Assembly: GCA_019187105.1 (NCBI GenBank)
Contig: JABAQM010000001.1
Location: 310,001 to 374,000, forward strand
Source: Fimbriimonadaceae bacterium
GTDB taxonomy: Bacteria; Armatimonadota; Fimbriimonadia; Fimbriimonadales; Fimbriimonadaceae
Direction of reading: 5' to 3'
DNA length: 64,000 nucleotides
In this document: positions 943-1,116 of the stretch, piece after piece
Numbering within the stretch: the stretch's first letter is position 1
Layout: each line of letters begins with the position of its first letter
Made by a program: the position numbers and the translations under genes
The notes under the pieces: generated by a model
What the model was told of the DNA's origin: nothing
The model's input: only the letters and a program-made list of their open reading frames with translations
The model's database searches: none

Positions 943-1116
943 GTGTTGCTCAAATCCGTCATCGCAGCGGGAATCGGAGCCCTCGTGGGCTTTGGATACC
1001 ACCTCTTGATGCGCTCGATTGGTTCCAGCTGAATCAACTGCCGTCAGCCGGCGGTGCCGGTGATCGCAGGAGCGTTGCTCGGTCTCTTTGCCCTTTGGTC
1101 GTCAAACCGCGACTAG
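943..1116 (+). CDS. Small two-helix membrane protein, candidate selenoprotein (in-frame TGA at codon 30)
   Basis: A frame runs from GTG 943 to TAG 1114-1116 with a single in-frame TGA at 1030-1032. Reading TGA as Sec gives 57 residues: a first hydrophobic helix (about 2-23) with a glycine-zipper pattern GIGALVGFGYHLLM, a short loop SIGSSUINC, and a second helix (about 38-52, VPVIAGALLGLFALW). The loop would contain a U-x-x-C redox motif (Sec30, Cys33). The helix/Cys-loop/helix layout resembles small DUF6132-type proteins, which have two Cys in that loop; the match is by eye. An AGGA sits 7 nt before the GTG. A hairpin with a GGU loop follows the TGA at the distance of a bacterial SECIS. The alternatives are a nonsense mutation or a sequencing error. 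The selA/B/C/D genes are not in this window. Confidence 0.55.
1043..1064 (+). promoter_or_regulatory. SECIS-like stem-loop downstream of the in-frame TGA
   Basis: Positions 1048-1051 (CCGG) pair with 1057-1060 (CCGG) around a five-base loop CGGTG. Beyond a bulged G at 1047, 1044-1046 (TCA) pair with 1061-1063 (TGA), and 1043/1064 form a G-T pair. The loop's first G (1053) lies 20 nt past the TGA, close to the spacing in the E. coli fdhF SECIS, and a G early in the apical loop is the hallmark of bacterial SECIS elements. The helix is short and G+C-rich sequence forms such hairpins by chance, so it is only supportive of the recoding call. Confidence 0.45.

Follow-up and report, generated by a model that had tools for sequence, protein, structure and literature searches.

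A probable, previously uncatalogued family of two-helix membrane selenoproteins in Armatimonadota

Introduction

A 2026 inventory lists 119 families of prokaryotic selenoproteins (PMC13188914, Table 1). Among small membrane proteins, two described groups come close to the protein reported here. DUF6132 (Pfam PF19628) comprises uncharacterised small proteins with a loop of the form G-x-C-P-[IL]-T-[SC]-N-P, and to our knowledge it is not described in Pfam as a selenoprotein. XapX (TIGR03510 / DUF1427 PF07235) is a small two-helix membrane protein that is not known to carry a conserved Cys or Sec in its loop. We found no relevant paper on DUF6132 in the literature searched, and nothing there tied selenoproteins relevantly to Armatimonadota.

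The window analysed here is a 64,000-nucleotide stretch, positions 310001-374000 of its contig, from a 3.3-Mb Fimbriimonadaceae genome with an estimated completeness of 99.5%. An original prediction, made from the sequence alone, had proposed that a short frame with one in-frame TGA encodes a two-helix membrane redox selenoprotein with a UxxC loop. We compared this frame with its relatives, and the results very likely describe, as a whole, a previously uncatalogued bacterial selenoprotein family with two membrane helices and a Sec-bearing loop.

Results

Reading frame and selenocysteine machinery

The predicted frame held exactly as described. It is a single 57-codon frame at 943-1116 on the forward strand, interrupted solely by the TGA at 1030-1032 (codon 30). 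The 29 codons from the GTG at 943 lead to this TGA, and 27 further codons follow before the TAG at 1114-1116, so that the translation reads VLLKSVIAAGIGALVGFGYHLLMRSIGSS*INCRQPAVPVIAGALLGLFALWSSNRD*. A frame of this length with one TGA is unremarkable alone and no more than suggestive; comparison with homologues was therefore the test. TGA terminates 18 of the 32 window ORFs of at least 300 codons. It is thus an ordinary stop in the source genome, and a reassigned code is excluded. The neighbours are an SRAP (YedK-like) gene on the opposite strand at the 5' side (245-913) and a retropepsin-like aspartyl protease with a PDZ domain at the 3' side (1143-2303).

The source genome has all four of selA, selB, selC and selD, the genes whose presence had been put forward as a check. 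SelA (376 bits), SelB (355 bits) and SelD (347 bits) are encoded, the last with one in-frame TGA, and the tRNA-Sec is 95 nt long with the anticodon UCA. We also observed that SelD (1769561-1770469 of the contig, locus L046) is itself Sec-containing, with its TGA in the context AG*ASK. A strong hairpin lies right 3' of that TGA, at about the same distance as in the window gene.

Distribution of the family and the TGA/Cys column

Homologue searches, which read through stops, found relatives in 47 of 101 near-relative genomes and, with a profile built from 43 members, in 90 of 291 Armatimonadota genomes. The closest relatives on named contigs belong to Fimbriimonadaceae or Fimbriimonadales within Armatimonadota. 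The frame carries one in-frame TGA in 67 of the 90 family genomes and no stop in the other 23; 88 genomes were read directly and the remaining two were counted from the search table. In all 88 relatives read, the codon-30 column held TGA or Cys and no other residue, and no frameshift occurred at this position among close relatives. No relatives were found in viral contigs or in plasmids. A search of genome contigs returned nine loci, seven of them family members and two outside the phylum (L073 and L074); the latter pair looked like chance matches on inspection, and a further candidate, L064, was dropped as noise. One record titled Methanoregulaceae archaeon (L067, JADZEW010000008.1) bears a Fimbriimonadaceae-type copy. 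Its title looks mislabelled, and the record appears to match contig C8 of G011, a genome placed in the family of the window.

The residue at codon 30 followed the Sec machinery. SelA was present in 64 of the 67 TGA genomes versus 1-2 of the 23 TGA-free ones (Fisher 2.8e-15), the uncertain count reflecting G049, which has SelA, and G233, which gave a weak match. The Fisher values reported here overstate independence because the sequences are related, and the contrast within genera is the fairer test. In five genera (g4, g6, g20, g22 and g128) the residue changes together with SelA, which is present in the TGA carrier and absent from its TGA-free congeners, with the caveat of G233; genus g32 was the only exception to this rule. 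The three TGA genomes without a SelA match were G035 (74% complete), G255 (85%) and G193 (98%). The G193 copy (C206:4021-4185, L142) is of the TGA form, and the lack of a SelA match in spite of that completeness perhaps reflects an assembly gap.

Codon differences 3' of the TGA were mostly silent, with 83 synonymous versus 40 non-synonymous changes among 14 close pairs, showing that purifying selection acts on the codons after the UGA. The selenoprotein reading thus held on each line of comparison, the TGA column, the machinery, the tracking of Cys and the hairpin described below. We conclude that the in-frame UGA is almost certainly decoded as Sec, on comparative grounds and without selenium labelling or mass spectrometry.

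A SECIS-like hairpin directly 3' of the UGA

A SECIS-like hairpin was found at the place expected for such an element. Fifteen nucleotides separate the UGA from CCGGC-GGU-GCCGG (1048-1060), a 5 bp stem with its GGU loop at +21 to +23. Of the 41 Sec members of the order, 37 form all five stem pairs in register around a loop that begins with G at +21, and none of 18 Cys members does (Fisher 1.1e-11); the Cys column of the latter was set by hand for this count. The stem overlaps the codons for P-A-V-P, so conservation of the protein had to be separated from conservation of the RNA. Synonymous sites in the stem were nearly fixed. The first Pro codon is CCG in 38 of 39 cases (44% in window genes), the Ala codon GCG in 35 of 35 (27%) and the Val codon GTG in 28 of 32 (28%), while the adjoining Val codon, outside the hairpin core, is relaxed and shows mixed usage. 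In L131, one extra codon lies between Sec and PAVP, and a hairpin with different pairs keeps the distance to the UGA. Unrelated stems occur in L060, L114 and L132; judged by their sequences, those of L060 and L132 end in a GGUC loop. More distant Sec members lack the CCGGC-GGU-GCCGG stem, and several can form other hairpins, for which we have no statistics. The hairpin had no match in Rfam.

Protein anatomy and the partner cysteine

The AlphaFold2 model placed helices at residues 2-25 (946-1017, with a glycine-zipper pattern) and 37-54 (1051-1104), with Sec in the connecting loop. This supports the predicted two-helix arrangement, at the modest confidence of the model (mean pLDDT 69.6). The charges leave the membrane topology undecided. 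A structure search gave no fold match for the model, and a PDB sequence search gave none either. With two helices only, the protein does not have the thioredoxin fold.

The window protein carries its partner cysteine, Cys33 (1039-1041), in the U-x-x-C layout that had been predicted. UxxC only partly held, and we rejected it as a family signature, as it is one of two alternative layouts. Among 85 distinct proteins, the partner Cys lay at +3/+4 in 61 and at -4 to -7 in 20, and in none at both (Fisher 8e-16). In total, 81 of the 85 had one partner Cys in one of these layouts. Four had neither, one of them with a Cys at -3, and three lacked any partner Cys within seven residues. A single partner Cys on either side, never on both, points to a single selenenylsulfide or disulfide as the working unit.

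Translation start

The Shine-Dalgarno sequence predicted before the GTG found no support. The putative element of the window gene is AGGA inside TAGGAT (931-936), and SD-like words before family starts were at background (6 of 60 versus 9.7%). The motif TANNNT was enriched 8-fold just before the starts (23 of 60 versus 4.5%), and TAGGAT itself is a -10-like element of this kind just 5' of the start. Background levels of SD together with TANNNT enrichment suggest leaderless transcripts, so the mRNA of the window gene is likely leaderless rather than SD-led, an inference from sequence.

Genomic neighbourhood and thioredoxin joins

A gene that we take to be hemW, named from its sequence and radical-SAM domain, lies directly 3' of the family gene in 9 of the 20 loci read, and argS lies nearby in several. 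The other neighbours are mostly unrelated housekeeping genes, and only part of the family shares the neighbourhood. The loci examined gave no general hint of a partner or substrate. At L160, in genome G254, a Sec-containing DUF6132 gene sits between genes that we take to be clpB and groES-groEL, again named from sequence, which raises a possible link to stress.

In two genomes, G215 (L163) and G216 (L129:1001-1567), a DUF6132-type Cys hairpin is followed in frame by a C-terminal WCGPC thioredoxin (PF00085, E 2e-25). Where the thioredoxin starts, each has an in-frame ATG accompanied by an SD-like word. The two joins may therefore represent an overlapping or tightly coupled pair rather than a fusion.

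Discussion

In the proposed mechanism, two membrane helices would form a hairpin whose connecting loop holds one Sec and one partner Cys. Comparison shows that the UGA is decoded as Sec, with the SECIS-like hairpin directly 3' of it, and that Cys takes the place of Sec where the Sec machinery has been lost. Sec and its partner may join reversibly in a selenenylsulfide at the membrane, and the protein may be a small thiol/selenol oxidoreductase or electron relay that thioredoxin recycles. This last part could as readily prove wrong as right. The predicted membrane redox role remains an inference that has not been shown, and we prefer a redox function mainly because the partner Cys is single and lies on either side but never on both. 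The substrate can only be guessed, perhaps disulfides of membrane proteins, persulfides or peroxides, and any choice of the side of the membrane on which the loop lies would also be a guess. A bolder reading is that these are minimal membrane selenoproteins across the phylum, in which the resolving Cys moved repeatedly across Sec within a thioredoxin-driven redox relay, and that, beyond this phylum too, part of DUF6132 is an unrecognised family of selenoproteins. We offer this tentatively, since we consider the case for it slightly weaker than the case against.

Two alternatives accept the selenoprotein and dispute its role. In the first, the protein is not a catalyst, and the Sec/Cys pair is a metal ligand site or a sulfur/selenium carrier, a role that is a guess for membrane proteins of the XapX and YeeE type as well. 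In its favour, 10 of the 43 members weakly resemble XapX (best E 1.1e-4), and YeeE/YedE thiosulfate transporters occur as selenoproteins (PMC13188914). However, a coordination site of fixed geometry accounts less well than a disulfide-type pair for a single partner Cys that switches sides, and one branch has a thioredoxin joined to the domain, so we regard this role as improbable. In the second, the protein belongs to a larger membrane complex as a small accessory subunit, with Sec serving stability or redox sensing instead of turnover. Its size and glycine-zipper helices would suit packing, and the recurrence of hemW (9/20 loci) and argS beside the gene could be read in the same way. However, only part of the family retains the neighbourhood and the analysis turned up no complex partner, and we think this unlikely as well.

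The remaining alternatives deny Sec and are all but excluded. Under table 11 a TGA ordinarily ends the protein, which would leave a 29-residue peptide and a decayed remnant, but the same column in dozens of genera, the tracking of SelA by Cys, the synonymous bias and the SECIS-like hairpin speak against a true stop. Reading of the UGA as Trp or another residue, by a code change or suppression, has no supporting evidence that we could find, and it is contradicted by the use of TGA as a stop in the long window ORFs and by relatives that carry Cys and never Trp. Reading error, pseudogene and recoded genome were likewise ruled out by conservation and stop usage.

The selenoprotein reading adds a family that about a quarter of the searched Armatimonadota genomes carry (90/291 by count). 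With just 57 codons and a UGA at which gene callers are expected to split it, the gene would escape selenoproteomes based on annotation. The claim that the family had not been described held for the 119 inventoried families, from which a two-helix DUF6132/XapX-like protein is absent (PMC13188914). The family is also absent among the new families of deep-Sep (PMC12013277), and none of the 43 members matched an NCBIfam selenoprotein model at E <= 1. Novelty is claimed within the limits of these sources and the literature searched. The partner Cys on either side of Sec offers a direct, testable structural prediction, the link to DUF6132 and to thioredoxin gives an initial clue to the function of an uncharacterised Pfam family, and the selenoprotein may help to account for the persistence of Sec decoding in its Armatimonadota carriers.

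Comparison with known systems

The window protein reached no Pfam or NCBIfam cut-off. Against XapX TIGR03510 the score was 12.0 bits, below the cut-off of 27.8, so that beyond the small two-helix membrane architecture the similarity amounts to a weak profile match. With DUF6132 it shares its size, the two helices, a Gly-rich first helix, and a conserved loop Cys or Sec followed by a Pro. It differs in falling below the cut-off, in having PAVP in place of NP and in the presence of Sec. We therefore filed it as related to DUF6132 and not as a member, its score being below the curated cut-off. The distant Sec members G254 and G255 do pass that cut-off, with 24.1 and 24.2 bits versus 23.2, and the G254 protein alone scored 31.7 bits.

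In the SECIS of E. coli fdhF, a short stem carries a GGU(C) apical loop some 20 nt 3' of the UGA. The window hairpin is alike in these features, and differs in its 5 bp GC stem, its 3-nt loop and the lack of an evident bulged U. Finally, the window protein agrees with known prokaryotic selenoprotein families in placing Sec next to Cys (UxxC/CxxU) and in having its SECIS right after the UGA.
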